From the NCBI RefSeq assembly GCF_009766105.1, contig NZ_LMUH01000025.1:76358-140357 (forward strand): DNA of 64,000 nt, in the 5' to 3' direction. The stretch's first letter is position 1. Each line of letters begins with the position of its first letter. This DNA is from Granulicella sp. S156. GTDB taxonomy: Bacteria; Acidobacteriota; Terriglobia; Terriglobales; Acidobacteriaceae. This document shows positions 8,673 through 30,321 of the stretch, one piece after another. The notes beneath the pieces were generated by a model that saw only the letters and a program-made list of their open reading frames with translations, was not told the origin of the DNA and did no database searches. A program made the position numbers and the translations under genes.

Positions 8673-8700
8673 TTTGCCGGCTGGTAAAAGAAAATCTTTA

Positions 8701-9469: not shown

Positions 9470-9488
9470 GCTCCTCTTCTCCAGCTAC

Positions 9489-9515
9489 AAAGGCCGCCTC
9501 AAATGGGCGGCCTTT
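9489..9515 (+). terminator. Rho-independent-type terminator after pilin 1
   Basis: AAAGGCCGCC (9489-9498) and GGCGGCCTTT (9506-9515) form a perfect 10-bp stem with a 7-base loop, followed by GTTTA. It sits 20 bases after the pilin 1 stop. Confidence 0.8.
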
Positions 9516-9578
9516 GTTTACTATAGTTCGTTATTCTGGGTTGTCCTGGAGTCTGCTTCTCCCTCGTATCCGCAAAGA

Positions 9579-10085: not shown

Positions 10086-10126
10086 ATCTCCGAATGTGAC
10101 GTTTCAATAGGTTGAGGAAGTACAGC

Positions 10127-10267
10127 ATGTCCCTTTGGCCTTTGCAGCGATACAAGCATCCGCAAAATACAGGGGTTTCTAGACGCAAAGCGCGCCACAA
10201 ACATTTGCATCACGCTCTGCATCAAGGGGTTTCTTCGCTTCCGCTGGTCGGTCGAAATGACAGATGT
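10127..10267 (+). repeat. Composite repeat: repeat I interrupted by repeat II
   Basis: Repeat I blocks GCAAAATACAGG (from about 10162) and GCTGGTCGGTCGAAATGACAG (ending 10263) are split by a repeat II core (GACGCAAAGCGC at 10182-10193, then CACAAACATTTGCATCACG). The insert is flanked by direct copies of AGGGGTTTCT at 10171-10180 and 10225-10234. Repeat I at 21273-21317 is the uninterrupted form. Confidence 0.7.
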
Positions 10268-10328
10268 TGTGGCGGGTTCCCTTGCTCGGCGTTTCCAGAA
10301 GCAGCGTCTTGACTGTAAACTACCTAAA

Positions 10329-11009
10329 ATGAATATTTTGGCAAGAAAAATTCAACTCAAAACCGGCGGCAAACTCCTCTTGTTTGCGCTCGCCTTGCTT
10401 GCATTCAGGGCCTCTGTGTTCGCGCAGGCGCCCACGGCGGCCTCGCTCGCGAAGCAGGTGGATGCGCACTACAACCGGTTGCAATCGCTGCAGGCACGCT
10501 ATACCGAACGCTATCAGGGCATGGGGCTGGATCGTACCGAGACCGGAAGCCTGACGCTTCGTAAACCCGGACGCATGCGCTGGGCCTATGACACCCCCGC
10601 CGGCAAGCTCTTTATTCTCGATGGCAAGGACGCGATCTCCTACACCCCTGGGGATGCGCAGGCACAGCGCATCCCGGAGAAGAAGCTGGACGATCTGCGG
10701 TCGCCACTGCGCTTTCTGCTCGGACACACTGAGCTCGCAAAGGAACTCGATGGGTTGAGCCTGACCGTCGTGAACGGCGGCTATACGCTCTCCGGCACCC
10801 CTAAAGGCATGCAGCAGCGCGTCCATTCCCTCGCCCTTACAGTGGATGCAGCCGGGGCGATCCGCGCGATGCGTATCGAGGAGACGGACGGTGCAGTCAC
10901 GACCTTCAACTTCACCGACATGCACGAGAACATTCCGACCCGTGACGGCGACTTCATCTTCACACCGCCGCCGGGCGTTGCGATCGTCGACGGGGCTGCA
11001 CCGATCTAG
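10329..11009 (+). CDS. lolA: Outer-membrane lipoprotein carrier protein LolA-like
   Basis: A 226-residue protein with a signal peptide (KLLLFALALLAFRASVFAQ, cleaved near residue 33), so it is periplasmic. LolA features follow: LAKQVDAHYNRLQSLQARY, the strand GSLTLRKPGRMRWAYDTPAG, LFILDGKDAISYTPGDAQ, and the closing FNFTDMHENIPTRDGDFIF-TPPPG motif typical of LolA. It would accept lipoproteins from LolCDE and carry them to the outer membrane. The ATG at 10329 is chosen; the in-frame ATG at 10257 lies in the repeat upstream. No lolB or lolCDE is adjacent. Confidence 0.88.
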   Translation: MNILARKIQLKTGGKLLLFALALLAFRASVFAQAPTAASLAKQVDAHYNRLQSLQARYTERYQGMGLDRTETGSLTLRKPGRMRWAYDTPAGKLFILDGKDAISYTPGDAQAQRIPEKKLDDLRSPLRFLLGHTELAKELDGLSLTVVNGGYTLSGTPKGMQQRVHSLALTVDAAGAIRAMRIEETDGAVTTFNFTDMHENIPTRDGDFIFTPPPGVAIVDGAAPI

Positions 11010-11040
11010 TATCGGTTTCACGGATCATGCACAGCGGAGA

Positions 11041-11105
11041 TCTGCAACATGCAGGTCTCTCCACTACGGCGGCAAAAAACGCCGCCTCCGGTCGAGATGA
11101 CAAGG
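11041..11105. repeat. Degenerate repeat I-like element with GC hairpin
   Basis: TCTCTCCACTACGGC, CTCCGGTCGAGATGACA and a trailing ATGGGG resemble the end of repeat I. Between them GGCGGC and GCCGCC flank an AAAAAAC loop (about 11068-11087), making a strong hairpin that may also terminate lolA transcription. Confidence 0.5.
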
Positions 11106-11272
11106 TATGGGGATAGTCAAAAAAAGACCACCTCACACTATCGGTAAAGGTGCTCTCATGCAGATGCACCAGGCTTTTCCCAAAGAAACCAGTACTCGTT
11201 GAGCCTTTCGTGGTTACACGAACATATGATCGGCTCTAAACTATCCACCTTCACTCGGTGTACCGTACTTTC

Positions 11273-13408
11273 ATGCAGCTTCGTTCTCTCGCCGCACTCC
11301 TGGCTCTGGCTCTACCTGCAGCCGCACAGTCCGCATTGCACCTCGTTCCGATGCCGCGCGAGGTTGTGCCCAAGCCTGATCACGCACTGACTAGCGGTGT
11401 GACGGTCAACTGCTCCAGCTGCGATGCGGAGGACAGCTTTGCGGCTAATGACCTGCAGCAGACGCTTGCGGCACGTGGCGTTCCCAGTGGCAGTGGGCTG
11501 CGTATCGTGCTGCAACGCCTTGCGCAGCATCCGGATGCGAGTTTTACGGATGCGATGAAGCCGGAGGGCTACACCATCGTCTCCACGCCCGGGACGATTA
11601 CGCTCACCGGAGCTACTGCATCGGGAGTCTTCTATGCCGCGCAGACGGTAAAGCAGATGATCGAGCCTGCCGGTGAAGGACAGTTCGTCCTGCACGCGGC
11701 CAATATTCGGGATTACCCCGCGATGAGGTATCGCGGCCTGCATGACGATCTCTCGCGCGGCCCGGTCGATACGCTGGAGTTCCAGAAGAAGCTCGTCCGC
11801 ACGCTCGCGGCGTACAAGGCTAACCTCTACTCGCCATACTTCGAGCACACGCAGCAATATGCTTCCAATCCCCTGCCCGCACCGCCGGGAGGCAGCATCA
11901 GCGCCGAGGACGCACGCGAGCTGGTGGCCTATGCGAGGCAGTATCACGTGATGGTTGTGCCCGAGCAGGAGGCGTTTGGGCATCTGCATCACAACCTTCT
12001 CTACGACGAGTATCAGCAGCTTGCCGAGACGCCTCATGGCGCAGTCCTTGCACCCGGCCAGCCCGGCTCGCTCAAGGTGATCTCGCAGATGTTCGGCGAG
12101 CTCGCACAGATGTATCCAGCACCCTTTCTGCACGTCGGCGCGGACGAGACCGTTGATCTCGGACTTGGCCAGACCAAGGCCGCCGTCGATGCGCAGGGCC
12201 TGGGCAAGGTGTACCTCGACTTTATGCAGCAGATCGATACGACGCTGCGACCGTTGAATCGACGCCTACTCTTCTGGGGCGACATTGCGCAGGACTCGCC
12301 TGACCTGCTCAAGGCGATGTCCCCGCAGTTCAAGCGCGACACGATTGCCATTGGCTGGCAGTACAACCCCAACCCGGCGGGCTTCTCAAAGTATCTGAGG
12401 CCCTATGCGGACGCTGGCTTTGAGACCTGGGTGGCACCCGGCATCAACAACTGGTCGCGCGTGTATCCCAACTACAACTACGGACTGCAGAACATTCAAC
12501 AGTTCACGCGCGACGGCCAGCGTGCCGGCTCTACCGGCCAGCTCAACACGCTTTGGAACGACGATGGCGAAACGCTGGCCTCGAACAACTGGTACGGCAT
12601 TCTGTTTGGCGCAGCAGCAGCGTGGCAGCAGGGTGAAAGTTCGATTCCGCAGTTCGAAGAGAACTATGGGCAGGTCTTCCACGGCGATATCACCGGCAAA
12701 CTCAACCAGGCGCAGCTCGAAATCATGGCCGCGCACGAACTGCTGAAGACAGAGTTTAAGGTCAGCGATGGTTCGGACCTGCTCTTCTGGAGCGATCCTT
12801 GGGCCAAAGATCAGCAGCAGAATGCGGCGAAGCTTCGACCCTACCTGCACGAGCTTCGTTTGCATGCGGAGAAAGCGCTCGACCTGATTGCACAGGCCCG
12901 CGCCGCAGCCCCTGCACCCGCTACGCCTACGGTCTATAGTCCGACGAATCAGTTTCCGTCCAACCCCACCACCCTGCGCGAGACTGACGCGATCGACGCA
13001 ATGGAACTCGGCGCTCGCCGCCTCGACTTTATCGGACTGAAGTTTCAGCTCGCCGATGAGATCACCGTAGCCTATGCCCGGGCGCAGGCCACAGCGGCTT
13101 CAAGCGAGCGGAAACCTCATCCCTCGGTCAGCGCGCTGCTCTCTGAGATCAACAGCGTCAACGGGCGGATTCAGGACATCAAGGACGGCTACTCACTGCT
13201 ACGCGATCTCCACGCACAGCTCTGGCTGCGCACGAACCGGCCCTACGCGCTGCGGCCTGTGCTGGAGCACTACGATTACACCGTTGCCCTCTGGCTCTCA
13301 CGCATGGATAAGATGCGTAGCGTGCAGCGTCAGTGGGAAAGTACAAGAACCTTGCCCAGCGCAGCTGATGCGGGCATTCCACAACCGCCCCTGGGATCGA
13401 CAAACTGA
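11273..13408 (+). CDS. Secreted GH20 beta-N-acetylhexosaminidase
   Basis: A 711-residue protein with a signal peptide (MQLRSLAALLALALPAAAQS). The GH20 domain-2 region comes first, including PEGYTIVSTPGTITLTGAT and ASGVFYAAQTVKQM. The TIM barrel then starts at PAMRYRGLHDDLSRG. The catalytic Asp-Glu pair is D291-E292 in FLHVGADETVDLG, matching the H-x-G-x-DE signature. Trp-rich NTLWNDDGE and NNWYGILFGAAAAW belong to the active-site wall. About 200 extra C-terminal residues are helical and unassigned. GH20 enzymes release terminal GlcNAc/GalNAc using the substrate acetamido group. It ends one base before nagA, so the two are almost certainly cotranscribed. The ATG at 11273 gives the cleanest signal peptide. 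Confidence 0.9.
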   Translation: MQLRSLAALLALALPAAAQSALHLVPMPREVVPKPDHALTSGVTVNCSSCDAEDSFAANDLQQTLAARGVPSGSGLRIVLQRLAQHPDASFTDAMKPEGYTIVSTPGTITLTGATASGVFYAAQTVKQMIEPAGEGQFVLHAANIRDYPAMRYRGLHDDLSRGPVDTLEFQKKLVRTLAAYKANLYSPYFEHTQQYASNPLPAPPGGSISAEDARELVAYARQYHVMVVPEQEAFGHLHHNLLYDEYQQLAETPHGAVLAPGQPGSLKVISQMFGELAQMYPAPFLHVGADETVDLGLGQTKAAVDAQGLGKVYLDFMQQIDTTLRPLNRRLLFWGDIAQDSPDLLKAMSPQFKRDTIAIGWQYNPNPAGFSKYLRPYADAGFETWVAPGINNWSRVYPNYNYGLQNIQQFTRDGQRAGSTGQLNTLWNDDGETLASNNWYGILFGAAAAWQQGESSIPQFEENYGQVFHGDITGKLNQAQLEIMAAHELLKTEFKVSDGSDLLFWSDPWAKDQQQNAAKLRPYLHELRLHAEKALDLIAQARAAAPAPATPTVYSPTNQFPSNPTTLRETDAIDAMELGARRLDFIGLKFQLADEITVAYARAQATAASSERKPHPSVSALLSEINSVNGRIQDIKDGYSLLRDLHAQLWLRTNRPYALRPVLEHYDYTVALWLSRMDKMRSVQRQWESTRTLPSAADAGIPQPPLGSTN

Positions 13409-14609: not shown

Positions 14610-17600
14610 TTGCCGAACGAGATTGCCGCACTTGCGTTACTCGAGATACCGACTCGACTCAGGGCCTTCGATCTAACGCTGGTAGCGATCTATCTTGTAG
14701 GCATTACGCTCTTCGGCCTGCGCTTTCGCGGCAAATCCGGCGGCGCCAAAGCAGACCGCTCGCTCAAGAGCTACTTCCTCGCCAACAATACGATTCCCTG
14801 GTGGGCCATCGCGCTGTCCATTGTGTCGGCCGAGACCTCAACCCTGACCATCATCTCCATTCCCGGCGTTGCCTTCGCGGGGGACTTCGGCTTTCTGCAG
14901 GTTGTGATCGGCTATATGCTCGGGCGCATTGTGGTGGCCGCGCTGTTTCTGCCGCGCTACTTCGCGGGTGAGATGCTTACTGCCTATCAGCTCATCGATC
15001 AGCGATTCGGCACTGTGCTGCACAAGGTGACTGCCGGATTGTTCTTGCTGACGCGTGCCGCCGCAGAGGGCGTGCGTGTCTTCGCGGTGTCTATCGTCGT
15101 CGGCATCGCGATTGGGACGCGCGATGTGCTGTCTATCGGGATTATCTCTGCGCTGACTTTGCTCTACACCTTTGAAGGCGGCATGGCTGCAGTTATCTGG
15201 ACCGATGTTGTGCAGATGGCAATCTACGTCGGCGGAACGCTTGTTGCGCTGCTCACACTGGGCTCGCATGTAACGGGAGGCTGGAGCCAGATTCACACAG
15301 TGGCGGCCGCTGCTGGCAAGTTCCACATGCTCGACTTCAGCATGAACCTTACGAAGACCTATACCTTCTGGGCCGGGGTGCTGGGCGGAACGTTCCTCAC
15401 GATGGCCTCACATGGGACGGACCAGTTGATGGTGCAGCGCATGCTGGCTGCGCGTAATCTGCGCGAGTCGCGGCTGGCGATCCTTAGCTCCGGCGTTGTG
15501 ATCTTCGTGCAGTTCGCCTTCTTCCTGCTCATTGGCGTGGGATTGTATGTGTTCTATGGCCAGCACCCTGCGAGCTTTGCCAGCGCCGACCGCATCTTCC
15601 CAACATTTATCGTGCGCGAGATGCCGATTGGCATCGCAGGCCTGCTGGTTGCGGCGATTCTTGCGGCGGCGATGTCGAACCTCTCAGCCGCGCTCAATTC
15701 CCTGTCGTCGACAACGGTCGTCGATTTCTACATGCACCTGCGACCGCAGGCTGATGACCGCGAACGGACGATCGTCTCGAAGTCTTCAACGCTTTTGTGG
15801 GCGCTTGTGCTCTTTGCGATTGCGGTCTACTCCGTGGGCGTGGGCGGGAAAGGCCATGTGGTCGAGATTGGGCTCTCCATCGCGTCGGTTGCTTATGGAT
15901 GCCTGCTGGGTGTATTTCTGCTGGGCACGCTCACGAAGTTCGCGACAGAGATTGGCGCGACCATTGGTATGGTTTGCGGCTTCGTGCTGAATCTTTGGCT
16001 GTGGCAAGGAGTGTTCCCCGTGCATCTCGGACCCATTACGGTTCCACACGTAGCGTGGACCTGGTACGTGTTGATCGGCGCAGTAGCGACGTTCGCCATC
16101 GGCTCGCTCGTGAGCCTGGTCTTCGCGAAGCAATCTGCACGAAGGCCTGCAGTGGCCCTTCTCCTGCTCCTGTCTTTCCTGTTGTCCTTCCGAGGTGCAG
16201 CAGCACAAACGCAAGTCATACCTGCGCCAGACTTCTCTCCCGTCTCCACACTCATCAACGGTGCCATCGCCGCACATAAGCTCCCCGGCGCGGTAGTGGT
16301 CATCGGCCATGGCGGTCATATCGCCTTCGAGCAAGCCTATGGGGCCCGCAAGCTCGCGGGAGAACCCGGCCTCGATGGCACACCTGCGCCTGCCGAGCCG
16401 ATGACAGAGGACACGATCTTCGATATGGCCTCGCTCAGCAAGTGTCTCTCTACGGCGACAGCCGTGATGCAGCTTTACGAGCAAGGCAAGCTGCAGTTCG
16501 ATGACCCTATTCAGAAGTACTTGCCCGACTTCAATGCCACTCACGATGCAGAGCGCGCGCAGGTGACGATCCGCATGCTGCTCACGCATACTTCAGGGGA
16601 AGCTGCTGACGTGAACCAGAAGGATGTCTGGGGACTCGCTGCGCCGGATAAGGCTGAGGGCTTCCATCGCGCGCTGACGACGACGCTGCAATCCGCTCCG
16701 GGTGCGGTGTTTCGCTACTCGGACATCAACTTCATCCTGCTCGGTGATCTGGTAGAAACGCTTAGCGGCGAATCGCTCGACATCTACGCGTTGGAGCACA
16801 TCTACAAACCGCTGGGCATGACGGAGACGCGTTATCTGCCGCTCGCGAAGGCTTGCGGCCCACATCAGGTGGCTGGTTCGGCTATTGTGTGGCAACGACC
16901 ACCGGTGGGACATATGCTGTTTGCCTGTCCACAAGGAACATGGAGCACCTCGTTGCTGCCACGCATCGCTCCCACTGCGCACGACGATGAAGGCAAGTCC
17001 GATCCTGCAACCAACCCCGACTTCGATCGTCTGCTGCGCGGCACGGTGCATGACCCAAGCACACGCCGTATGGGTGGCGTTGCGGGCCATGCCGGTGTCT
17101 TCTCGACGGCACACGATGTCTCGCTCTTCGCGCAGGCATTACTGGACCGCCTCGCCGGGCGTCCCAGCAACTTTCCGCTGAAGCAATCGACGCTCGAACT
17201 GATGACCACGCCCGAGCAACCGGGTCATAGGGCGAATGACCTTAGCGATTCGAACGCCGCGCAGGAGAAGGCTAAGGAAGTGCGATCAGGCAGCTCCTAC
17301 GACCCGCTTCTGGCACCCAGCTATCCCGCGATTTCATCGCGAAGTCTGCGCGGCTTTGGGTGGGACATCGATACAGCGTTCTCTAAACCGCGCGGCGACG
17401 TGTTCCCTATCGGCAGCTTTGGCCACACCGGCTTCACCGGCACTTCTCTCTGGATGGACCCAGGCTCCGATACTTATGTGATCCTGCTGGCCAATGCGAT
17501 TCACCCGCGCGGGAATCCACCGATCTCGAATCTGCGGGGCGACGTTGCGAGCGCCGCTGCAATCGCGCTCCATCTCTACGGCGACATCCCATCCGGTGAT

Positions 17601-18971
17601 CTTCGTACAGAGAGTGATAACGCTCATACTCTTACCGGAATCGACTCCCTCGAACAGCAGCACTTCGTACCCCTCGCCGAAGCCGCTGCTCGCCACAACC
17701 ATCGCCTCAACCTCGGACTGCTCACCAATCAAACGGGCCTGGACGCACACGGTCGCCGCACCATCGACATTCTCGCGAACGAGCTTCCTAAAGCTGTCTC
17801 ATCGGCCAAGCTGACCACGCTCTTCTCGCCGGAGCATGGCATCTTCGGCAGGCAGGATACGACTGCCATCGCCGCAGAGACCGATCCCACAACCGGACTG
17901 CACGTTACGAGCCTCTACGGTGCGAAGGATGCCGACCGCCGGCCCTCGCACGAGCAATTGAAGGACCTCGATGCGCTCGTCATCGATCTGCAGGATGCAG
18001 GAGTTCGCTTCTATACCTATGAGGCTGTCACGGGATACTTCCTCGAAGCGGCGGCGCGTGAGAAGAACGAGTTCCATCACGATCTGGAGATCATCGTGCT
18101 CGATCGCCCCAGCCTCATCGGCGGTGAGCAGGTGCAGGGGCCAGTCTCGGATGCAGGGCTTGAGAGCTACACGGATTACATGCCGCTGCCTGTGCGCCAC
18201 GGGCTGACGCTGGGTGAACTCGCACAGTACATCAACGGCGAAGCCACCTCCACACTCGCTCATAGCGATGCGCTCTTCGCCAGCACTGAGCCCCCGAATG
18301 GCCCGCGCGCTACACACACGCCGTCGAGGCCATTCAGCAAAGGACTCGGCGCGCATCTTACCGTGATCCCGATACAGCACTGGTCGCGCGCCGAGTACTT
18401 CGGCAACACAGGCCTTGCGTGGGTTAATCCCAGCCCCAACCTGCGCAGCCTGACCGCCGCGACCTTCTACCCTGGAATCGGGCTGCTGGAGACGACAAAC
18501 GTCTCTGTGGGACGTGGGACTGCGACGCCCTTTGAACTCTTCGGTGCGGGCGTGCCTGCGAAGGATACTAAGACCGGTGTACAGAAGCCCGTCTGGTTCA
18601 ATGCCGCTGATGTTGCCGCGGCTCTCAACGCGCGACATATCGTCGGCGCCACGTTTGCGGCGACCACAGCCAATGTTGCTGAGGACTCCAACCACTACCC
18701 CTTCCACGGCCAGACCATCGAAGTTGTGCGTATTACTCTTACGGATCGCAAAGCGCTCGATGCACCGGAGATGGGTGTTGAGATTCTAAGCGTCCTGCAT
18801 CGTCTGTATCCAGAGCAGTTTCAGGTCGAGAAGGCCATGCGTCTTGTGGTCAATCGCGCCACCATGGATGCGCTGGAGCGCGGAGAAGATCCGCGTGCTA
18901 TCGCCGGAGACTGGAAGCATTCGCTGGATGCCTTCGTGGCGCGGCGGGCGGCTTACCTGCTCTATCCGTAG
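14610..18971 (+). CDS. Triple fusion: sodium/solute symporter + beta-lactamase-fold hydrolase (AmiE-like) + NamZ/DUF1343 exo-muramidase (GH171)
   Basis: A 1453-residue protein. Residues about 20-505 are a complete SSS-family symporter (FLANNTIPWWAIALSIVSAE, TFEGGMAAVIWTDVVQM, AAILAAAMSNLSAALNSLSS). Residues about 514-537 form a hydrophobic, signal-like segment (ALLLLLSFLLSF then AAAQTQ). Residues about 545-1000 are a class C beta-lactamase-like serine hydrolase with S608-LS-K611, Y703-S-D/I-N and a C-terminal HTGFTG box. Residues about 1013-1453 are DUF1343, now called NamZ: LGLLTNQTG, LFSPEHGIFG, LDALVIDLQDAGVRFYTYEA, PLPVRHGLTLGEL, NVSVGRGTATPFELFG. In B. subtilis NamZ releases MurNAc from non-reducing ends and AmiE strips peptides, beside permease MurP. 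Inference: import, amidase and muramidase steps joined, with the hydrolases in the periplasm. It starts 33 bp after nagA. Confidence 0.88.
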   Translation: MPNEIAALALLEIPTRLRAFDLTLVAIYLVGITLFGLRFRGKSGGAKADRSLKSYFLANNTIPWWAIALSIVSAETSTLTIISIPGVAFAGDFGFLQVVIGYMLGRIVVAALFLPRYFAGEMLTAYQLIDQRFGTVLHKVTAGLFLLTRAAAEGVRVFAVSIVVGIAIGTRDVLSIGIISALTLLYTFEGGMAAVIWTDVVQMAIYVGGTLVALLTLGSHVTGGWSQIHTVAAAAGKFHMLDFSMNLTKTYTFWAGVLGGTFLTMASHGTDQLMVQRMLAARNLRESRLAILSSGVVIFVQFAFFLLIGVGLYVFYGQHPASFASADRIFPTFIVREMPIGIAGLLVAAILAAAMSNLSAALNSLSSTTVVDFYMHLRPQADDRERTIVSKSSTLLWALVLFAIAVYSVGVGGKGHVVEIGLSIASVAYGCLLGVFLLGTLTKFATEIGATIGMVCGFVLNLWLWQGVFPVHLGPITVPHVAWTWYVLIGAVATFAIGSLVSLVFAKQSARRPAVALLLLLSFLLSFRGAAAQTQVIPAPDFSPVSTLINGAIAAHKLPGAVVVIGHGGHIAFEQAYGARKLAGEPGLDGTPAPAEPMTEDTIFDMASLSKCLSTATAVMQLYEQGKLQFDDPIQKYLPDFNATHDAERAQVTIRMLLTHTSGEAADVNQKDVWGLAAPDKAEGFHRALTTTLQSAPGAVFRYSDINFILLGDLVETLSGESLDIYALEHIYKPLGMTETRYLPLAKACGPHQVAGSAIVWQRPPVGHMLFACPQGTWSTSLLPRIAPTAHDDEGKSDPATNPDFDRLLRGTVHDPSTRRMGGVAGHAGVFSTAHDVSLFAQALLDRLAGRPSNFPLKQSTLELMTTPEQPGHRANDLSDSNAAQEKAKEVRSGSSYDPLLAPSYPAISSRSLRGFGWDIDTAFSKPRGDVFPIGSFGHTGFTGTSLWMDPGSDTYVILLANAIHPRGNPPISNLRGDVASAAAIALHLYGDIPSGDLRTESDNAHTLTGIDSLEQQHFVPLAEAAARHNHRLNLGLLTNQTGLDAHGRRTIDILANELPKAVSSAKLTTLFSPEHGIFGRQDTTAIAAETDPTTGLHVTSLYGAKDADRRPSHEQLKDLDALVIDLQDAGVRFYTYEAVTGYFLEAAAREKNEFHHDLEIIVLDRPSLIGGEQVQGPVSDAGLESYTDYMPLPVRHGLTLGELAQYINGEATSTLAHSDALFASTEPPNGPRATHTPSRPFSKGLGAHLTVIPIQHWSRAEYFGNTGLAWVNPSPNLRSLTAATFYPGIGLLETTNVSVGRGTATPFELFGAGVPAKDTKTGVQKPVWFNAADVAAALNARHIVGATFAATTANVAEDSNHYPFHGQTIEVVRITLTDRKALDAPEMGVEILSVLHRLYPEQFQVEKAMRLVVNRATMDALERGEDPRAIAGDWKHSLDAFVARRAAYLLYP

Positions 18972-21342: not shown

Positions 21343-22464
21343 CTAGGGGTGACTACTCAATATGACTTCCACTAGTTCTCCCTCCACTTCCTTAGTCGCC
21401 GGTAATGGAAACGCAAGCCTGGAGAGGCTTCGCGTCAGGGGGCGCTCGATCCAGCGGTAGGTCATCAAGCCGGCTGCGATCGAAAGGCCGACAGCAGTGA
21501 TGATGAAAGGTACCGGATAGAGAAAGTGCAGGCCCTGCCAGAGAAAATAAACCAAAAACACCGGCAAGAGGTGGATGAGGTAGAGGCTGTAGGAGGCGTC
21601 GCCCAGTGATTCGAGGCGTGGCCATGTGCCCGGTCTCCCGAAAGCACAAAGCGCCACGACGATGAAGTCCACGAACCAGAACAAAACCGACCATCGCAGC
21701 TCAACCGGGGGATGATGCACGGCGAGGGCAAAGACACAAAGATTGATGGCCAGCAGCGGAGCGACCAGAGGCACGTCCTGCACTGCCAGGAGCCACTGCG
21801 GGAACTTGAGTTTCAACCATCCGAGGGCTGCGCCAAGACCGAAGAGCAGGATGACCGGATTCGTGAGGAACTCGAGGGGTGAACGCGGATTGACGCCGGA
21901 AGCGATGGGATAGAAAAACGATCCGGCGATCACTATAGATACCAGGGCTCCCAGTAGGACGGCGGTCCTGACACGGTGCGGCAACAACAGGATCACAGCG
22001 AATAGAGCATAGAACACCATCTCGTAGTTCAGAGTCCAGCCGATGGGCAGGACCGGAGTCATGTTTCCACCCGCGTCCGCGTAGGGGATAAAGAAGAGCG
22101 ACTTCGCCAATCTGGCGACTGTAATCCCAACGGGACGATGCAGGCCAAGAAGGAACATCGGCACTGCAACGACAGCTGTCAGTAGCCAGTAGAGCGGAAC
22201 GACACGGATGATCCGGCGCGCAGCGAAGCGAGTGGCTCGCAGGCGAGGTGCGGTCGGGTCCTCCGCCGAATCAGCGGTATAGGTCATGATGAAGCCGCTA
22301 ATGATAAAGAAAATAGAAACGCCTTGTGCGCCGAGAAACGTAGCCCATGAGTTGATCGGCTCGCGCGAGAATCCATGCCCTGCGGTAAGTCCAGCAGCGT
22401 GATCAAGGACGACGAGCAGCGCAGCGATCGCCCGGAGAGACTGCAACGCACGAAGTTTGGGCAT
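21343..22464 (-). CDS. Acyltransferase family 3 membrane protein (OafA/YrhL-like)
   Basis: A 373-residue protein with about ten hydrophobic helices. The N-terminus LRALQSLRAIAALLVVLDHA carries the R-x-x-A and the catalytic His of acyltransferase-3 proteins. Later GVSIFFIISGFIMTY and GDASYSLYLIHLLPVF are typical of the fold, as is the closing RWIERPLTRSL. These enzymes O-acetylate or O-acylate sugars of LPS, exopolysaccharide or antibiotics using a cytoplasmic acyl donor. It is divergent from the rhl cluster with a 557-bp AT-rich gap. A role in modifying its products is possible but unsupported. Confidence 0.9.
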   Translation of the reverse strand: MPKLRALQSLRAIAALLVVLDHAAGLTAGHGFSREPINSWATFLGAQGVSIFFIISGFIMTYTADSAEDPTAPRLRATRFAARRIIRVVPLYWLLTAVVAVPMFLLGLHRPVGITVARLAKSLFFIPYADAGGNMTPVLPIGWTLNYEMVFYALFAVILLLPHRVRTAVLLGALVSIVIAGSFFYPIASGVNPRSPLEFLTNPVILLFGLGAALGWLKLKFPQWLLAVQDVPLVAPLLAINLCVFALAVHHPPVELRWSVLFWFVDFIVVALCAFGRPGTWPRLESLGDASYSLYLIHLLPVFLVYFLWQGLHFLYPVPFIITAVGLSIAAGLMTYRWIERPLTRSLSRLAFPLPATKEVEGELVEVILSSHP

Positions 22465-23021
22465 GGGGCTCTCCTAGCGCATGTGGCCTGAAACCCTAAC
22501 AATCAGGCGCAGCGCTCAAGCGATGTTTCTTTGTTCTTTTGATACTAAAGGGGTGACTGAGAATGCTCAGTGCGTTTTTGTAAAACCGTGGAAAATCGAC
22601 ACAAACGGGTCACTAAATGAGAAGAAGTTCCCCTTTAGAATTCACAACAAAGAAACGAAAATTCGAAAATCTGCACTATAGTTCTAGATATGTGCTCCAG
22701 GAGCTTGACTTGTTCGAGGGTACTTTAGTACATATTGTTTACATGCGTCTAATTTGTGGCCGAAACTTTGCGTGAAATCTAACGCGCGGTTTAGGGTCGC
22801 CTTCATTATCGGAATTGGCAAATAATAGCCATCTCCCCTAGAAGCAGGCGGCAATACGCCAAAGTAAGCCGCGGGCCCCGAAGTTACTCGAAACATCTAT
22901 AGCGGTCATGTAAGGTCTTCTGAAGATCCACACCGTCCTCCAGAAAGACGACCGTAAATTGCCACCCAGGAAAAGAGAATAACCCTGACTGCTTTAGTTA
23001 CTGGATAAAGGAGTTAACCTC
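22465..23021. other. 557-bp AT-rich intergenic region upstream of rhlA
   Basis: No gene is seen. The DNA is clearly poorer in GC than its left neighbourhood, especially 22590-22760. A weak sigma70-like site is TTGACT at 22705-22710 with TACATA 18 bases later. No convincing lux-type dyad was found. It should contain the promoters of the acyltransferase (left) and of the rhl cluster (right), and may mark the edge of acquired DNA. Confidence 0.5.
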
Positions 23022-23930
23022 ATGAAGCCAGAAGCGTCTGTACTCAATGTCTTTGGAAAACACAACATCTACGTCGAGCATTACAAAAAAGATGAAGCAG
23101 CCAAAACAGTTATTCTTGTAAACGGTGCTTTTGCAACAACCAGTTCTTTTAGTCAAACAGTCCGGTACCTCCGAGATAAGGTCAATGTAGTTTTATTTGA
23201 TCTGCCTTATGCCGGACGGTCCAAGGAACATAATTCAGGTGGCGCGGTTCTGAGCAAAGAGGATGAAGTAGAGATTCTCCTCGCTCTCATCGACCGATTT
23301 CAGGTGAATTACCTGATGTCAGTCTCCTGGGGTGGAGTGTCGTCTCTGCTATCTCTGGCAAGGCGCCCGCCCAGCATCGAAAAAGCGATCATCGCCTCGT
23401 TTTCCCCGGTTATCAATCGTGCGATGCATGACTACATGTCCGGAGCCCGCCATTTTCTTATGACGGGAGATCTGACAAGCGCTTCCCAGTTGCTCAATAA
23501 CACCGTAGGCCGCTATCTCTCCGGCCTGGTAAAAGCGCACAACCTGCAATACCTCCTCAGCAGTGTCGGCGGAAACGAAGAACAGATCATCTTCCATATC
23601 GATCAGATCTTCGATCTGGATAAGAAGCAGTACATGAATCAGTTCTCGTCCATCGATGTTCCTGTCCTGTTTCTCAATGGACAGCTGGATGAGTACACGA
23701 CTCCCCAGGATGCGCGGAGCCTGGCGCAGCACATTCCACTGAGCGAATTTGCTGTCGTGGAAGATGCAGGTCATTTTCTCGATCTGGAGAGCCGTCAACT
23801 CTGGCGCACGGTAAGCGGCATCGTCAGAAACTGGATGTTCGGCGATGAACCCCAGCCCGAGCCCCATATCGTTGTCCCTCCCAGCTTTGCCATGCCTCTC
23901 GGCCTGGAATTCGCGGAGGCAGGGGATTAG
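23022..23930 (+). CDS. rhlA: RhlA-type 3-(3-hydroxyalkanoyloxy)alkanoate (HAA) synthase
   Basis: A 302-residue alpha/beta-hydrolase-fold acyltransferase that in Pseudomonas joins two 3-hydroxyacyl units to make HAA, the lipid part of rhamnolipids. Against the Pseudomonas protein as I remember it, VILVNGAFATTSSF, NVVLFDLPYAGRS, DEVEILLALIDRFQVN, MSVSWGG and GHFLDLESRQ are near matches. The catalytic triad falls at S102, D223 and H251, the same residue numbers as in P. aeruginosa RhlA. The ATG follows AAGGAG with 8-base spacing. GC is low (22 of 60 bases at 23101-23160). The rhlB-like gene begins two bases after the stop. The chain-length preference cannot be read from sequence. Confidence 0.93.
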   Translation: MKPEASVLNVFGKHNIYVEHYKKDEAAKTVILVNGAFATTSSFSQTVRYLRDKVNVVLFDLPYAGRSKEHNSGGAVLSKEDEVEILLALIDRFQVNYLMSVSWGGVSSLLSLARRPPSIEKAIIASFSPVINRAMHDYMSGARHFLMTGDLTSASQLLNNTVGRYLSGLVKAHNLQYLLSSVGGNEEQIIFHIDQIFDLDKKQYMNQFSSIDVPVLFLNGQLDEYTTPQDARSLAQHIPLSEFAVVEDAGHFLDLESRQLWRTVSGIVRNWMFGDEPQPEPHIVVPPSFAMPLGLEFAEAGD

Positions 23931-23932
23931 CG

Positions 23933-25228
23933 TTGCATATCGTGATTATTGCGATCGGTTCAGCCGGAGATGTACACCCGTTCCTGGGATTAGGCCGAAC
24001 CTTTGCAAAAAGCGGTCATCGCGTATCTTTCTGCACAAACCCGGCGTTTGCCGATCTGGTTGAGCGTTCGAACCTGCGATTTCTACCCCTCGGAACCGCA
24101 GAAGAGTACAAGACGGCAATGAGCAACCCGGCACTGTGGGATCCACGCACCTCCTTCAAGGTGTTGTGGAAGGTGATGGCCGGATTCATTCAGCCGCTCT
24201 ATGATTTGCTGCAGCCTGAGATCGATGACGAAACGGTTCTCGTAGGTTCGCTGTGGGCTTTCGGAGCTCGGCTGCTGCAGGAAAAGTACGGCGTGCCCTA
24301 TGTCTCCGTTCAGGTCTCGCCTTCGACCTTTCTTTCAGCACACCTTCCACCGGTCCACAAACGCTTCACGATTCCATCTTCCTGGCCCATCTCCTTGCGA
24401 GCAAGCCTGCTGTGGTTGATCGAGCGTGGAGTGACAGACCGCGTTATGGGGCCCGCACTGAACAAGATCCGTACCAAACTCGGGCTTCCACCGTCGAAGC
24501 ACATCCTTGGCCGGTGGCTGCACTCTCCACAGCGAGTACTGGGTCTCTTCCCTGACTGGTTTGCACCGCCTCAGATCGACTGGCCGCCGAACGTCGCGCT
24601 GACAGGCTTTCCGCTCTTCGATGAGTCTGAGTTTCGAGAAATCGACGACGAACTGAAGACGTTTCTTGCGACTGGACCTGCACCGATTGCCTTTACGCCA
24701 GGTTCCACCATGGTGGATAGCCTGTCTTTCTTCAGCGCTGCTGCTGAGGTTCTGGGGACGCTCGGACAACGAGGCATCTTTCTGGCGAAAGAGGGATCTC
24801 CGATGCCTCCACTTGGCTCCAGTATTCTGCTCCGCTCGTACGTTCCGCTCAGCAAGTTGCTGCCGCAGGCCAAGGTGCTGGTGCACCATGGCGGCATCGG
24901 CACGGTCTCGCAGGCGCTGGCGGCGGGAATACCGCAGCTCGCGGTGCCCTTTGCGCACGATCAATTTGATAACGCCGCCCGGGTCGAACGCCTCGGCTGC
25001 GGCCTGCGGCTGGACTCACCGATCAGCGCGCCAACGCTGTTGACCTCTCTTAAACGCCTGCTGGAGGAAGAAAGCTTTCAGCGGAATTGCGCCTCGTACC
25101 GTCTGCGCGTTGAACCGGGCGAGACTTCCTGCCTGAGAGCTCTCGCGATGGTTGAGGCCGTAGGCATCGCGTCTCGCAATCTCGCTACTTTGTCGTCAAA
25201 GACAGGACCGCAGTTGGTTCGTGCTTAA
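23933..25228 (+). CDS. rhlB: RhlB-type rhamnosyltransferase 1 (GT1)
   Basis: A 431-residue GT-B glycosyltransferase; RhlB adds dTDP-L-rhamnose to HAA to give mono-rhamnolipid. The N-terminus HIVIIAIGSAGDVHPFLGL is very close to Pseudomonas RhlB. Further matches are WDPRTSFKVLWKVMAGFIQP, VSPSTFLSAHLPPVH, LFPDWFAPPQIDWP and TGFPLFDE, and the C-terminal nucleotide-binding PLSKLLPQAKVLVHHGGIG followed by PFAHDQFDNA. The start is a TTG at 23933, two bases after the rhlA stop; by comparison with RhlB this is exactly the expected first residue, and a GGGGAT-like site precedes it. It is almost certainly coupled to rhlA. dTDP-rhamnose synthesis genes are not in the window. Confidence 0.93.
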   Translation: MHIVIIAIGSAGDVHPFLGLGRTFAKSGHRVSFCTNPAFADLVERSNLRFLPLGTAEEYKTAMSNPALWDPRTSFKVLWKVMAGFIQPLYDLLQPEIDDETVLVGSLWAFGARLLQEKYGVPYVSVQVSPSTFLSAHLPPVHKRFTIPSSWPISLRASLLWLIERGVTDRVMGPALNKIRTKLGLPPSKHILGRWLHSPQRVLGLFPDWFAPPQIDWPPNVALTGFPLFDESEFREIDDELKTFLATGPAPIAFTPGSTMVDSLSFFSAAAEVLGTLGQRGIFLAKEGSPMPPLGSSILLRSYVPLSKLLPQAKVLVHHGGIGTVSQALAAGIPQLAVPFAHDQFDNAARVERLGCGLRLDSPISAPTLLTSLKRLLEEESFQRNCASYRLRVEPGETSCLRALAMVEAVGIASRNLATLSSKTGPQLVRA

Positions 25229-25285
25229 GCGGACTCGAACGGACCTCGATCGCAATGAGGCACAGCAACGGAGTGTAAGAGAAGG

Positions 25286-26239
25286 ATGAGCTTGACCCCT
25301 GGCACATTAGCGGTACTCTTCAACCCAACGGAAGAGCACGTCCAAAACCTGCTGAACTTGAAACGATTGTGCGAGACCATCGTCGCCGTCGATAACTCGC
25401 CAAAGGTCGATCCTCAATTACACGAGCGTATGCAGAGCCTGGATATCGATGTCGTCATCAACTCTAATCAGGGAGGCATTGCCGGCGCCTTCAATAAAGG
25501 CATCGAGAGGCTTCTGGAAAAACAGTGCGACCTGCTCTTCACCTTCGACCAGGACTCCAAGGTGTCTGAGGACTTCTTCAGCAAGATGATCGAGGCTTGC
25601 AGCAACCTCAACAGCCCGCACTTCCTGATGGGTCCGAAGATCTTCGACATTAACGTCGACCGCTATATTCCGCTGCTCATTATGAACCGTTTTGGCGTAA
25701 CCCTGACGCAGGTGACGGCGGAGGACCAGGGGTTGCTTCCCTGCTCTTCCATGATCTCCTCGGGTTCCGTCATGTCGGCCGAGACCTACCGGCTGGTGGG
25801 CTCCTTCCGCGAAGATTACTTCATCGACCAGGTCGACACGGAATATTGCTTTCGGGCTCATCGCAAGGGAGTGCCACTTTACATTAACACTGCGATCACC
25901 ATGAAGCATGAGATCGGCAAGCGGATCGACCGCAAGATAGGTTTCTTCAAGTTCATCCAGTGGAACTACATTCCTCTGCGCCAGTACTACTCGGCACGCA
26001 ACTGCATTCATATCTCGCGTCTCTATGCAGGCGGTCTGCCCTCCGCTGTCCTCATCAACCTCATCACGCTCGGGCAGTTGATCTCCGTGATTCTGTATGA
26101 GACGAACAAGCTCCGCAAACTAGGCGCCATGACCGCTGGCGTCATCGACGGACTGCTTGGGAGATACGGCCCCATCGAAGCACGCCACCCGCGCCTCACT
26201 CACTTCTGGACACAGCCGCGGCGCTATACGCAAGCCTAG
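25286..26239 (+). CDS. rhlC: RhlC-type rhamnosyltransferase 2 (GT2)
   Basis: A 317-residue family 2 glycosyltransferase; RhlC adds the second rhamnose to form di-rhamnolipid. The pattern TLAVLFNPTEEHV, IVAVDNSP, NQGGIAGAFNKGIE and LFTFDQDSK (the D-x-D metal site region) matches RhlC, as do MISSGSVMSAETY, YFIDQVDTEYCFRAHRKGVP and LRQYYSARN. The C-terminal LGRYGPIEARHPRLTHF corresponds to the end of RhlC. It follows rhlB by 57 bp in the same direction. The Burkholderia order is also rhlA-rhlB-rhlC with transport genes, whereas in P. aeruginosa rhlC is elsewhere. Presence of all three predicts di-rhamnolipid capacity. Confidence 0.9.
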   Translation: MSLTPGTLAVLFNPTEEHVQNLLNLKRLCETIVAVDNSPKVDPQLHERMQSLDIDVVINSNQGGIAGAFNKGIERLLEKQCDLLFTFDQDSKVSEDFFSKMIEACSNLNSPHFLMGPKIFDINVDRYIPLLIMNRFGVTLTQVTAEDQGLLPCSSMISSGSVMSAETYRLVGSFREDYFIDQVDTEYCFRAHRKGVPLYINTAITMKHEIGKRIDRKIGFFKFIQWNYIPLRQYYSARNCIHISRLYAGGLPSAVLINLITLGQLISVILYETNKLRKLGAMTAGVIDGLLGRYGPIEARHPRLTHFWTQPRRYTQA

Positions 26240-26278
26240 AGACACTGTTTGGCCTACAAGATGGACAAGGAAATCAGC

Positions 26279-27532
26279 ATGGGGACTTCGGCAGTTGCAA
26301 CCGTTCAGCTCACGACGCGCGAGGTCCTCGGCATAGGCGTCGTTCGGCGTCTGTGGTTTGCGCTGATCATCAGCACCTTTGGTGACTTCCTGGTGCTCTT
26401 CGCTGTGCTCAGTGTCGTCTCGTTCAAGATGCATGCGGCAGCCGAACAGGTCACCTGGGTCCAGATTGCATCTCTGATTCCCATCGTGCTGATCGGTCCT
26501 TTAGCCGGAGTCTTTGTCGATCGCTGGCCGCTTAAGCCCACCCTCGTATCCAGTGACGTGATCCGCGCCGGCCTTACGCTGCTCCTGCTGCTGGCGACGC
26601 AGCTATGGCACTTCTACCTCATCCTTGCAGTGATCAGCATCGTCTCCAGCTTCTTTGGGCCCGCGCAGCAGTGTGCCCTTCGCACTTCAGTTCCATCGGA
26701 GGGCATCATGGCCACGGGTGCGGTCATGCAGCAGGCCATCTTCGTGGTGCGCGTCATCTCTCCTGCCATTGCGGGTTTGCTGGTTGCTTCCTTCGGAGCA
26801 GTCTCGTGCTATCTGATCGATGGAGCCAGCTTCCTCGGTTCGGCAATACTGATCGCCTCCGTCGTTATCGGGAGCAAGGCCGCTACTCCCCAGAAGACCG
26901 AGGAAGACACACCGGGCGGTATTCGTAAGGTGTGGTTCGATATGCGTGTCGGCTTCAACTTTATCCTTCACCACCGCGCCATCTTCTTTGTCGTCCTTGC
27001 GTTGGCGGCGGCGATCTTCACGCTCGGGTGCTTCGCGCCGCTGATAGCGATCTATGTCCGAGAGAGCCTCCACGGCAGCGTGCGCCTCTTTGGCATCACC
27101 AGTTCCATGATTGGAGTCGGCATCCTTGGCGGCTTTTTTGCGGTCCAGCAACTGGCGAAGACCCACTCCAACAAGACACTGGTCTTCAGCGGGCTCGGCG
27201 GCATAGCACTCGGACTGCTGATCCTCAGCGTGATCACGCAGGTTGCCGTGACCCTCGTGGTCACCTTCACGATAGGCTTTGCCGTAGCGGCCATTCTGCT
27301 TCCGGCTCAGGCGCTGCTGCTGCAGGAGACTCCAGAGGATTTGATGGGCCGAGTCAGCAGCACCGGCATGTCCATTGTCTTTGGAGCGCAGGTGCTTGGA
27401 TTACTGCTCTCCGGATTTCTATCAAAGCTGATGAGCGTGCAGAGGATGTTTAGCCTGGCAGCATTGTTCCTTATTGGGTTAGTGCTCGTGGGGCGTCTTC
27501 TGCTTCGTGGGAAAGCCGCTCAGCAGCCGTAG
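26279..27532 (+). CDS. MFS transporter, probable rhamnolipid exporter
   Basis: A 417-residue major-facilitator protein with about 12 hydrophobic helices and the motif GPLAGVFVDRWPLKPTLV between helices 2 and 3, as in the MFS_3/enterobactin-exporter-like group. It starts at ATG 26279 (AAGGA 8 bases upstream), 39 bp after rhlC, so it is likely the fourth gene of the operon. Burkholderia rhl clusters also carry MFS genes, which supports an export role; this is inference from position. Its 3' end overlaps the convergent condensation-domain gene by 62 bases (27471-27532). Confidence 0.87.
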   Translation: MGTSAVATVQLTTREVLGIGVVRRLWFALIISTFGDFLVLFAVLSVVSFKMHAAAEQVTWVQIASLIPIVLIGPLAGVFVDRWPLKPTLVSSDVIRAGLTLLLLLATQLWHFYLILAVISIVSSFFGPAQQCALRTSVPSEGIMATGAVMQQAIFVVRVISPAIAGLLVASFGAVSCYLIDGASFLGSAILIASVVIGSKAATPQKTEEDTPGGIRKVWFDMRVGFNFILHHRAIFFVVLALAAAIFTLGCFAPLIAIYVRESLHGSVRLFGITSSMIGVGILGGFFAVQQLAKTHSNKTLVFSGLGGIALGLLILSVITQVAVTLVVTFTIGFAVAAILLPAQALLLQETPEDLMGRVSSTGMSIVFGAQVLGLLLSGFLSKLMSVQRMFSLAALFLIGLVLVGRLLLRGKAAQQP

Positions 27533-28868
27533 CGACAGGCTCCTCGATGGCATCCATCAGCAACTGAAGAGCGCGATCTCGAATGGCAAGCGCTTCACGC
27601 TGCGGCAGAAACCGCTCATTCGAAATGAATCCCAACTCTATCTCCTGGAGAAACTGAGTGGCCATCAGTGTATTGGCATTCTTCCACGGCACCGCGACCG
27701 TTCCGCCAATGAGGGCCTCGAGAGCAAACGTCTGATACCTGCTCTCAATCTTGATACGGCCAACGTTCGAGAAGGCAATATCATGCCCGCCCCTGCTGGA
27801 GCGCAGAAACTTGACGATCCCAGGTACGGAATCCCGCATCAGGTCGCCCAACATCATGTCTTCATAGACCTGCATCCCCTCTATTCCATCGGCGATGCTC
27901 TGTTTCATGGCCCGGGCGCGCGTCCAGAAATCAGCCTCTGGCTCCCTCCCCAAAGAGAGTTGGATCGTCGGGGCAAAGGCGAACATCATGTCGCTCTTCA
28001 CGGCACGGATAGACCGGCGAATGTTCACAGGACACATCATCTTGTTTCGGAAAGCTTTGCCCTTCACCTCGCGGAAGGCCAGCAGAAAAGCCACGCTGAG
28101 CGCGGCAAACAGGCTGGATCCTTCCGCCGTGCAGCGAGTGTTCATCTTGTCGAGCAGCTCCACTCCAGACTTCCAGTAGAGTACATAGGGATCTCCCGCA
28201 CCATATACAGGTTTTATGGCTGGCCATAAAGTCAGGAACAGCTTGTATATCATTGCTTTCCGTTTGGCCCGCCGAATCGTCTTTGCATCGGAAAGGACGT
28301 CTTGAGGAACAAGATCCGCCAGGGAGGAGTAGCTCGTGTACGGAACCAGCTCTGTGTCGGGCTGGTCAAGGACCAACAGAATCTCGCGGAGGAGTGTGAT
28401 GATCGATCCACCATCGCAGACGCAATGGTGGCCCACGAGCATCAGTTCGGAGACCTCGTCAGACCTGATCCAGAGCAAGCGCAACAGAGGGCCGGTCTGG
28501 GTCTCGAACGGCACATTCCACTGTGCGACCATGATGGCTCTCCAGTCCTCGTCGCTCTTGCGTTCGATGACCTGGACCGGGATCTCCGGAGCGCCTTCAT
28601 CCAGAACGAAGTAGGGTTCTCCTGCTTCTTCGACAACACGCGCGCGTAACAGCGGATGCTTCGCCTGCACCTTGTTGAGAGCGTTTCGCAAGTTGTCCGC
28701 AAGGATGACGCCTCGCACTTTCGCTGTCAGGGAACAGTTGATCGGCGTGACGCCATCAACGTACATAAAGCGCTCAAAGAACAGCATTTTTCTCTTCATC
28801 GCACGATTCTCAGAGGCAAAAGGAAGCTTAAACCGGGGCCGGGGATGCAGCAAGTATTCCATGCGCAT
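27471..28868 (-). CDS. Condensation-domain acyltransferase (PapA/phthiocerol-transferase-like)
   Basis: A 465-residue protein with one condensation-like domain. The catalytic HHxxxDG motif is H147-H-C-V-C-D152-G (numbered from the ATG at 28868) in LVGHHCVCDGGSIITLLREI. The opening ERFMYVDGVTPINCSLTAKV and KHPLLRARVVEEAGEPYF match PapA5-type and alcohol O-acyltransferases. These move acyl groups from CoA or carrier proteins onto hydroxyls. It faces the rhl operon and overlaps its last gene by 62 bp, so the two are physically linked. A possible job, by inference, is acylating rhamnolipid sugar or lipid hydroxyls. It could instead serve an unrelated lipid. An alternative start is ATG 28799. Confidence 0.82.
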   Translation of the reverse strand: MRMEYLLHPRPRFKLPFASENRAMKRKMLFFERFMYVDGVTPINCSLTAKVRGVILADNLRNALNKVQAKHPLLRARVVEEAGEPYFVLDEGAPEIPVQVIERKSDEDWRAIMVAQWNVPFETQTGPLLRLLWIRSDEVSELMLVGHHCVCDGGSIITLLREILLVLDQPDTELVPYTSYSSLADLVPQDVLSDAKTIRRAKRKAMIYKLFLTLWPAIKPVYGAGDPYVLYWKSGVELLDKMNTRCTAEGSSLFAALSVAFLLAFREVKGKAFRNKMMCPVNIRRSIRAVKSDMMFAFAPTIQLSLGREPEADFWTRARAMKQSIADGIEGMQVYEDMMLGDLMRDSVPGIVKFLRSSRGGHDIAFSNVGRIKIESRYQTFALEALIGGTVAVPWKNANTLMATQFLQEIELGFISNERFLPQREALAIRDRALQLLMDAIEEPVATAAERLSHEAEDAPRALTQ

Positions 28869-29025: not shown

Positions 29026-30321
29026 CTACCAGAGATAGGTAGCTTCAATAGACGGGGAGCCTGTCCTGCCGTCGATTACTTTTGTTTGGAGGACGACCTC
29101 TAGATTCTTGTTCTTCCAATCAGAAGGCAGGCGTTTGTCGAGTTCTTTGAGAAGCTCGTTGGACGCGACGAACTCACCTGCTGCTTCAGTACCGTTTCGT
29201 CCAGCTCCCGCTATCACCATGACAACGCCACCCGTCGTTGGATCATAAAAACGAGCGACGATGGCGCAGTCTTCAATCACAGTGAGATGAGAGCCGGGAC
29301 CGGCGACGTTGCTGAGGGTATAAGACCACTGCTGAGATTGAGGATTCTGGGAATCTTCAACATGCAGACTCCCCTCGGAATTGAAGTGATAGCGAAGCGG
29401 CGCCAGGAGCTTCGTACTCCACAGATTGGACGGACCGCCGATCAGAACAACGGGGCGATCTCTCAGATCTGTCAGCGTGATACTCGAATCTATCTGAATG
29501 CGATAGGCCACATTGTGCTCCATCAGGGGCTTGGAGGCGTGCATGATCGCGGAGACGTCTTCTGCTGCAATATCGGGATTATCCTTAATCCAATTCGGCA
29601 GATCCTCTTTCCTAAGAGGTCCCTTCATAAAAGGGCCGTCCGACATAGCCGGAGCCGGGGCCTGTGGGATCCCAATGAGAACGGCCTGAGAAGGGGTAAA
29701 GAAGCCACCCCAGAGTTTCTCGAGAGGGCTCTTTTGGAGATGAACGATCAGGCCCCAGAGGCCACCCCCCGCCAATAGCCCCAGAAGGGGTACCACCCAC
29801 AGAACCCACCTGAAACGATACTTTTTCGCTAGCTTGGGAACGGTTGCGGTCTCTGCCGTTGTGCCTGGAATGCCAGGGTGTTCTGGGAAGGAGGGTTTTG
29901 CGCTGAAAGAAGCCTCAGATTCAAAACGCAACTCAGGGTGATACGACCCCAAAGGCAGATAGATTCGAACCTGAGTGTTGTTAACGGACTCAGCGTGATA
30001 CAGCGACAGTCTTTTACGGACTTCGCTGGCTGTATTTCTTACCGCAGGGTCTGAATTCGTGTCGTAATCGACCGGACGGCCGAAGACCTCAATTCCAATG
30101 GTGCGTTCCTTGATCTCGGAACCTTGCCCTTGGAGCGTTTTTTCAACGATATAGGAGAGAAAAGCTGGATAGCGCTTGCTATTTCGGAAATAGGGACTGG
30201 AGACGATCGCCCGAAGCTCCGCACGTACCAGTTCACACTCTTCTTCCAAAAACGGAGCCCGAGAAGAGTGGTCATCGAGGACTGATGTCCTAACCAAACC
30301 TAAAAGTCCCTCCATCGGCAT
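29026..30321 (-). CDS. Membrane-anchored putative regulator (paralogue A) beside an Oar-like receptor
   Basis: A 431-residue protein. Residues 30-130 are a cytoplasmic helical domain: LVRAELRAIVSSPYF, RYPAFLSYIVEKTLQG, EIKERTIGIEVFGRPVDYD, DPAVRNTASEVRKRLSLYH, then RIYLPLGSYHPEL. This module is familiar from acidobacterial membrane regulators, where it seems to replace a winged helix, but I know no formal name for it. One TM helix spans 171-194 (RWVLWVVPLLGLLAGGGLWG). Residues 195-431 should be periplasmic, with VVLIGGPSNLW and GGVVMVIAGAGRNGTEAA. It is divergent from a TonB-dependent receptor gene. Its paralogue at 57875-59215 has the same architecture and the same kind of neighbour. Role as envelope-sensing regulator is inferred. 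Confidence 0.7.
   Translation of the reverse strand: MPMEGLLGLVRTSVLDDHSSRAPFLEEECELVRAELRAIVSSPYFRNSKRYPAFLSYIVEKTLQGQGSEIKERTIGIEVFGRPVDYDTNSDPAVRNTASEVRKRLSLYHAESVNNTQVRIYLPLGSYHPELRFESEASFSAKPSFPEHPGIPGTTAETATVPKLAKKYRFRWVLWVVPLLGLLAGGGLWGLIVHLQKSPLEKLWGGFFTPSQAVLIGIPQAPAPAMSDGPFMKGPLRKEDLPNWIKDNPDIAAEDVSAIMHASKPLMEHNVAYRIQIDSSITLTDLRDRPVVLIGGPSNLWSTKLLAPLRYHFNSEGSLHVEDSQNPQSQQWSYTLSNVAGPGSHLTVIEDCAIVARFYDPTTGGVVMVIAGAGRNGTEAAGEFVASNELLKELDKRLPSDWKNKNLEVVLQTKVIDGRTGSPSIEATYLW

Follow-up and report, generated by a model that had tools for sequence, protein, structure and literature searches.

The stretch analyzed here (hereafter, the window) comprises 64,000 nucleotides of Granulicella sp. 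S156, positions 76,358 to 140,357 of contig NZ_LMUH01000025.1 read on the forward strand, and contains a candidate gene cluster for the synthesis of rhamnolipids, soap-like molecules known mainly from Pseudomonas and Burkholderia. Four intact open reading frames (ORFs) at 23022-27532 encode homologs of RhlA, RhlB, and RhlC followed by a transporter of the major facilitator superfamily (MFS), in the order given in a preliminary description of this DNA (Table 1). They are arranged head to tail on the plus strand with gaps of 2, 57, and 9 bp, which is consistent with one operon. The preliminary description regarded these genes as the complete cluster; all four were present, but the extent was drawn too small, as two acyltransferase genes assigned here to the cluster had been overlooked: COND, which shares 62 bp with the 3' end of the MFS gene, and an Acyl_transf_3 gene. 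Promoter-like sites in the intergenic region upstream of rhlA were not more than expected by chance. The assignment of the DNA to an acidobacterium was borne out, since the TonB receptor gene adjoining the cluster matched plasmids of Granulicella and Acidisarcina first; the 16S rRNA gene of the genome carries the site of the Acidobacteria primer Acid31F.

Table 1. Genes and features of the candidate rhamnolipid cluster, with positions in the window.
Feature	Position	Strand	Remarks
rhlA	23022-23930	+	302 aa, ATG start, intact ORF
rhlB, rhamnosyltransferase I (GT-B fold, GT1/28-like)	23933-25228	+	431 aa, TTG start, 2 bp past rhlA
rhlC, rhamnosyltransferase II-like enzyme of glycosyltransferase family 2 (GT2)	25286-26239	+	317 aa
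MFS transporter, putative glycolipid exporter	26249-27532	+	427 aa as annotated; likelier start ATG 26279 (from homolog lengths)
COND, predicted stand-alone PapA/condensation-type O-acyltransferase	27471-28868	-	convergent with MFS gene; likelier start ATG 28799
Acyl_transf_3, predicted membrane acyltransferase	21343-22464	-	divergent from rhlA; PF01757, E = 3.6e-27
Intergenic region, Acyl_transf_3 gene to rhlA	22465-23021		557 bp; possibly a shared regulatory region

Within the cluster, the sequence evidence was strongest for RhlA. Among solved structures, its best match was the 3-(3-hydroxyalkanoyloxy)alkanoic acid (HAA) synthase of P. aeruginosa (8ik2_A, E = 2e-71, residues 4-277), and the second-best match was far weaker (E = 4e-9). 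The alignment with 8ik2_A was gap-free until past residue 251, so that the catalytic triad S102, D223, and H251 is numbered as in P. aeruginosa, for which the consulted parts of one study give the same residues (PMC5352749). As the preliminary description had stated, this triad was kept in the window RhlA, and likewise in all four acidobacterial RhlA. Together with the nucleophile motif SWGG it was present in 9/9 aligned RhlA, and two outgroup hydrolases had SMGG. In a tree of 8-9 RhlA, the clade that included proteobacterial RhlA was fully supported (100/100) against the two outgroup hydrolases, and the four acidobacterial sequences formed their own clade inside it (100/99). The window RhlA was 68-74% identical to the other acidobacterial RhlA, across two genera, and 44-50% identical to RhlA of Burkholderia. 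The outgroup was taken from four distant Bacteroidota hydrolases obtained by a contig scan (21-25% identity to the query); the Pseudomonas and Burkholderia set consisted of a few copies on plasmid records; and the Erwinia rows for RhlA and RhlB, kept in an earlier tree, were left out of the final trees owing to long branches.

RhlA was rare in the sampled family. At E ≤ 1e-20 it was found in 2/28 genomes of the genus, 4/398 of the family, and 1/347 of the phylum, and at E ≤ 1e-25 in 4/399 of the class; these samples overlap, every count includes the genome of the window, and the three other carriers evidently lie outside the phylum sample. The four carriers (G000, G005, G212, and G332) represent two genera. 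G212 repeats the window arrangement, including the convergent COND gene, and in G332 the genes are split, with rhlA-rhlB on contig C1 and rhlB2-rhlC-MFS-Acyl_transf_3 plus a divergently oriented COND gene on contig C2. A further genome, G395, has an RhlB of 58% identity at a contig end without RhlA. The rhlA genes of G332 and G212 have a divergently oriented neighbor resembling a sigma-factor gene, beyond which come an anti-sigma-like gene and a gene for a large protein resembling tetratricopeptide repeat (TPR)/CHAT proteins (judged by eye; L010 5992-8009 and L011 10233-12930), a neighborhood absent from the window.

This patchy distribution, together with the GC content of rhlA (0.51, against 0.566 for the window), would fit an island that was acquired recently, is decaying, or is silent. 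We regard such an island as highly improbable, because the acidobacterial RhlA form a clade of their own that spans two genera at the identities given above, the GC content at third codon positions of rhlC and mfs is the same as in neighboring genes, and the genes are under strong purifying selection. Compared with their nearest orthologs (G332b copies excluded), rhlA, rhlB, rhlC, and mfs showed nonsynonymous differences (pN) of 0.13-0.19 and synonymous differences (pS) of 0.62-0.82, and COND showed pN of 0.26 and pS of 0.72 against its G212 copy; pS is near saturation, so these ratios are rough, yet all five genes are clearly constrained, as judged from these comparisons. Recent transfer from a known donor was considered separately and rejected, as the best match in the named records searched reached 50% and the acidobacterial RhlA stand apart.

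RhlB was 50-53% identical to RhlB of the two Burkholderia rhl clusters compared, matched the Pfam families EryCIII-like_C and Glyco_transf_28, and shared 117 invariant alignment columns with the other RhlB (seven sequences in all). All seven lay together on the same side of a branch supported only modestly (76/88). The TTG start also occurs in two of the three other acidobacterial rhlB genes paired with rhlA, and the third has ATG at the same position. For sugar supply, a full rmlBADC set was found in the genome, away from the rhl cluster, on contig C18 (L030: rmlC, 8659-9222; rmlD, 9272-10210; rmlA, 10210-11169; rmlB, 11082-12182), with the assignments of RmlD, RmlA, and RmlB backed by Pfam matches. 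Deoxythymidine diphosphate (dTDP)-L-rhamnose is thus available, which only makes its use by RhlB possible. The donor sugar of RhlB cannot be read from sequence, and the product of an rhlAB relative in Pantoea is, according to PMC4863597, a hexose lipid; the window enzymes might in the same way produce a glucolipid or another sugar lipid. This appears very unlikely in view of the rmlBADC genes and of the likeness of RhlB to the Burkholderia enzymes, compared with an identity of only 26% to an Erwinia protein of the enterobacterial type.

RhlC scored 202.2 bits against the NCBIfam model TIGR01556 (rhamnosyltransferase), narrowly above the curated cut-off of 200.55. It was 36% identical to RhlC of P. 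aeruginosa, 37-39% to RhlC of Burkholderia operons, 37-41% to RhlC-like proteins of another type of acidobacterial cluster (described below), and 43.5% to a stand-alone protein of B. cenocepacia. The best tree separated it from Pseudomonas and Burkholderia-operon RhlC, and a topology holding the rhl-type RhlC together was disfavored but not rejected (p-AU = 0.0685); the Spirosoma and Paer_HOU1_GT2 rows were left out of the final trees because of long branches, and the deep RhlC forks were unresolved in an earlier tree that contained them. Of the three identities proposed in the preliminary description, those of RhlA and RhlB were upheld by sequence, residues, and trees (for RhlB, with modest branch support), but in the best tree RhlC did not group with its Pseudomonas and Burkholderia-operon namesakes. 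On this sequence evidence the protein is best called RhlC-like, with a second rhamnosylation as its likeliest role. Its nearest named relative, the stand-alone gene on a B. cenocepacia replicon (L037 9992-10876), is surrounded by genes of regulator and sugar-acid types, as judged by eye.

The MFS protein belongs to the general MFS_1/MFS_3 carriers (Pfam MFS_1, E = 5.7e-34), and its gene is kept beside rhlC in G212 and G332 with 68-74% conservation. No BLAST match to it was found at 1e-8 in the rhl plasmid of B. glumae (L014) or at 1e-4 in the PA1131-rhlC locus of P. aeruginosa (L038). The gene termed an exporter in the preliminary description is present, but that label was a guess from gene position.

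COND matched Pfam Condensation (E = 1.5e-13). A profile of 17 homologs matched the PapA-type structure 8s6l_A over nearly its full length (E = 9e-42), ahead of condensation domains of nonribosomal peptide synthetases (NRPS), and the idea that COND is a mere NRPS fragment was rejected on the basis of this match. HHxxxDG is the active-site motif of PapA/condensation acyltransferases; it reads HHCVCDG in COND, and H148, D152, and G153 were invariant in 17/17 homologs. The PapA_C domain was detected in the G212 copy (34.4 bits; cut-off, 30) and was not reported for the window copy. COND thus resembles PapA-type enzymes (PapA5, phthiocerol dimycocerosyl transferase) and NRPS condensation acyltransferases in its fold, as seen by profile, and in the active-site His and Asp-Gly. 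In contrast to mycobacterial PapA-type enzymes, which serve polyketide lipids, it is linked to rhamnosyltransferases. Acidobacterial homologs were 27-60% identical to the window copy. At E ≤ 1e-10, COND was found in 30/398 family genomes, several times in NRPS-sized frames, and at E < 1e-60 in 8/398; among the loci of seven of these eight (all except G003), the COND gene was at most two genes away from one for an RhlC-like protein in 7/7. Homologs in Nostoc and Crinalium (26-28%) had no nearby matches to other window proteins. As for Acyl_transf_3, homologs of about 55% identity occur in G212, and in G332, where the gene adjoins rhlC-MFS. At this identity or better it was present in all three genomes with rhl-type RhlC, the window genome included, and in 0/9 others searched, where the best match was 35% (G005) or none at E ≤ 1e-20. 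The evidence on both acyltransferases taken together suggests that the product is O-acylated.

Several of the close COND relatives belong to a second cluster type, found on contig C18 of G000 (L032 10132-19501 and L046 494-4522), in loci L033, L034, and L036, and partly in L035; the genomes with such clusters are G000, G004, G309, G472, and, in part, G395. It contains an NRPS (condensation, adenylation, peptidyl carrier protein, and thioesterase domains by Pfam in the G004 copy), two glycosyltransferases resembling UDP-glycosyltransferases, three stand-alone condensation acyltransferases, an RhlC-like GT2 enzyme, and an ABC-2 transporter of the ATP-binding cassette (ABC) type. The COND proteins are 27-37% identical to that of the window. 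Unlike the window cluster, these clusters are devoid of RhlA and feature an NRPS instead, as observed for G000 and G004, along with an ABC transporter, as observed for G000. From its gene content, this cluster type looks like an undescribed family of acylated glycolipids or lipopeptides.

Taken together, we consider it likely that the locus is an acidobacterial rhamnolipid cluster encoding a di-rhamnolipid pathway, with a product that is probably further O-acylated. From the gene identities, which the sequence establishes, we infer activities, sugar, acylation, and export as follows. RhlA would join two 3-hydroxyacyl chains from fatty-acid synthesis to HAA, RhlB would transfer L-rhamnose from dTDP-L-rhamnose, supplied by rmlBADC, onto HAA, and RhlC would add a second rhamnose. 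Next, at least one acyl group would be placed onto sugar hydroxyls by the PapA/condensation-type enzyme and possibly by the Acyl_transf_3 protein as well; export of the product may fall to the MFS protein.

Some observations weigh against this pathway. The other two acidobacterial rhl-type RhlC fell under the TIGR01556 cut-off (197.0 and 191.3) and an O-antigen type enzyme (rfbQ protein) exceeded it (246.5), so that this model does not define RhlC. In the tree with a GT2 outgroup, the window RhlC was joined with the RhlC-like proteins of the RhlA-free acidobacterial clusters and the stand-alone B. cenocepacia protein (99/100), and its acceptor may therefore differ from mono-rhamnolipid. The rhlB that accompanies rhlA in G005 is broken off by the end of the contig, and this genome gave no RhlC or COND match at the cut-offs used. 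PA1131, the MFS protein beside rhlC of P. aeruginosa, is the nearest analog of the window MFS protein, and was without effect on production or secretion according to the consulted parts of PMC5352749. COND and the rhl genes of the window are not co-transcribed, and the G212 copy of the Acyl_transf_3 gene lies about 600 kb away from rhl, unlinked to it.

The grouping of RhlC, together with the split of the genes over two contigs in G332, would also fit a mosaic in which RhlA and RhlB yield HAA and mono-rhamnolipid, and the RhlC-like, MFS, and acyltransferase genes form a separate module finishing another glycolipid. This is unlikely in our view, as the window and G212 have a single A-B-C-MFS run and G332 still has every part. 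The strand of COND and the unlinked gene in G212 would rather suit a Burkholderia-like pathway to plain di-rhamnolipid, in which both acyltransferases are neighbors with unrelated roles; in Burkholderia, rhlA, rhlB, rhlC, and transporters are clustered with no acyltransferase (L014, and the consulted parts of PMC2804600). However, COND adjoins rhlC-MFS in 3/3 genomes with rhl-type RhlC, in two arrangements, its close relatives track RhlC-like genes in the second cluster type, and Acyl_transf_3 shows the 3/3 versus 0/9 co-occurrence. With two acyltransferases in the cluster, the pathway may not end at plain di-rhamnolipid, and the plain version seems rather unlikely to us.

Compared with known systems, the acylated di-rhamnolipid cluster proposed here resembles those of B. 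glumae (plasmid, L014) and, by PMC2804600, B. thailandensis in grouping rhlA, rhlB, and rhlC with a transporter gene. The Burkholderia-type operon order (A, B, DHA2 MFS, C, outer-membrane factor, HlyD) was not found in the window, where the order is A, B, C, MFS, and the window cluster has acyltransferases and lacks the outer-membrane component. P. aeruginosa has the same three enzymes, the same RhlA triad numbers, and an MFS gene adjoining rhlC (L038), but its genes form two separate operons (rhlAB and PA1131-rhlC) without an acyltransferase, whereas those of the window form one run. The B. glumae cluster (L014 9959-20750) lies on a mobilizable plasmid and is followed by IS66 genes, and four B. 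glumae plasmid records have this RhlA. On a P. mandelii plasmid (L015 10001-12725), rhlA is paired with a class II polyhydroxyalkanoate synthase gene, with no rhlB.

The view that rhamnolipid genes are not commonly described in this soil group agrees with the literature consulted. A 2020 survey recorded RhlA solely from Beta- and Gammaproteobacteria, apart from a single likely transfer to Actinobacteria (Germer et al., 2020; PMC7054101), and, as far as its consulted text goes, a study on Isoptericola reported rhlA homologs by BLASTp at 1e-6, a loose criterion. Such acidobacterial genes were undescribed in open-license literature on rhamnolipids or rhlA and Acidobacteria, covered mostly by title, although absence there is not proof. 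The gene family is already known; what is new, as far as we have seen, is its occurrence in this phylum and its linkage to acyltransferases.

Elsewhere in the window, a 1453-aa frame (14610-18971, plus strand) combines sodium:solute symporter, beta-lactamase-type hydrolase, and NamZ exo-muramidase domains, and this three-part fusion looks as if it serves cell-wall sugar recycling. Two neighboring proteins (48177-49745 and 50087-51535, plus strand) have ricin-type lectin domains, the second also a GH18 (chitinase-type) domain. Proteins of 431 aa (29026-30321, minus strand) and 446 aa (57875-59215, plus strand) had no Pfam match; relatives of the latter at 31-37% occur in G332 and G005 loci, and the two proteins seem to be regulators whose genes adjoin TonB/carbohydrate genes.

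More broadly, it is possible, and we propose it only tentatively, that Acidobacteria make O-acylated di-rhamnolipids with an RhlABC scaffold, a PapA-type enzyme, and a membrane acyltransferase, and that the RhlC/PapA-type pair is a reusable module for glycosylation followed by acylation, which these bacteria would also employ for a separate, NRPS-linked family of lipids. If a rhamnolipid is made, this biosurfactant, which has roles in motility and competition elsewhere, would extend to a phylum that is common in soil, and the acyltransferases point to a product with altered surface properties. Rhamnolipid production is also an area in which enzymes from non-pathogenic sources are in demand.

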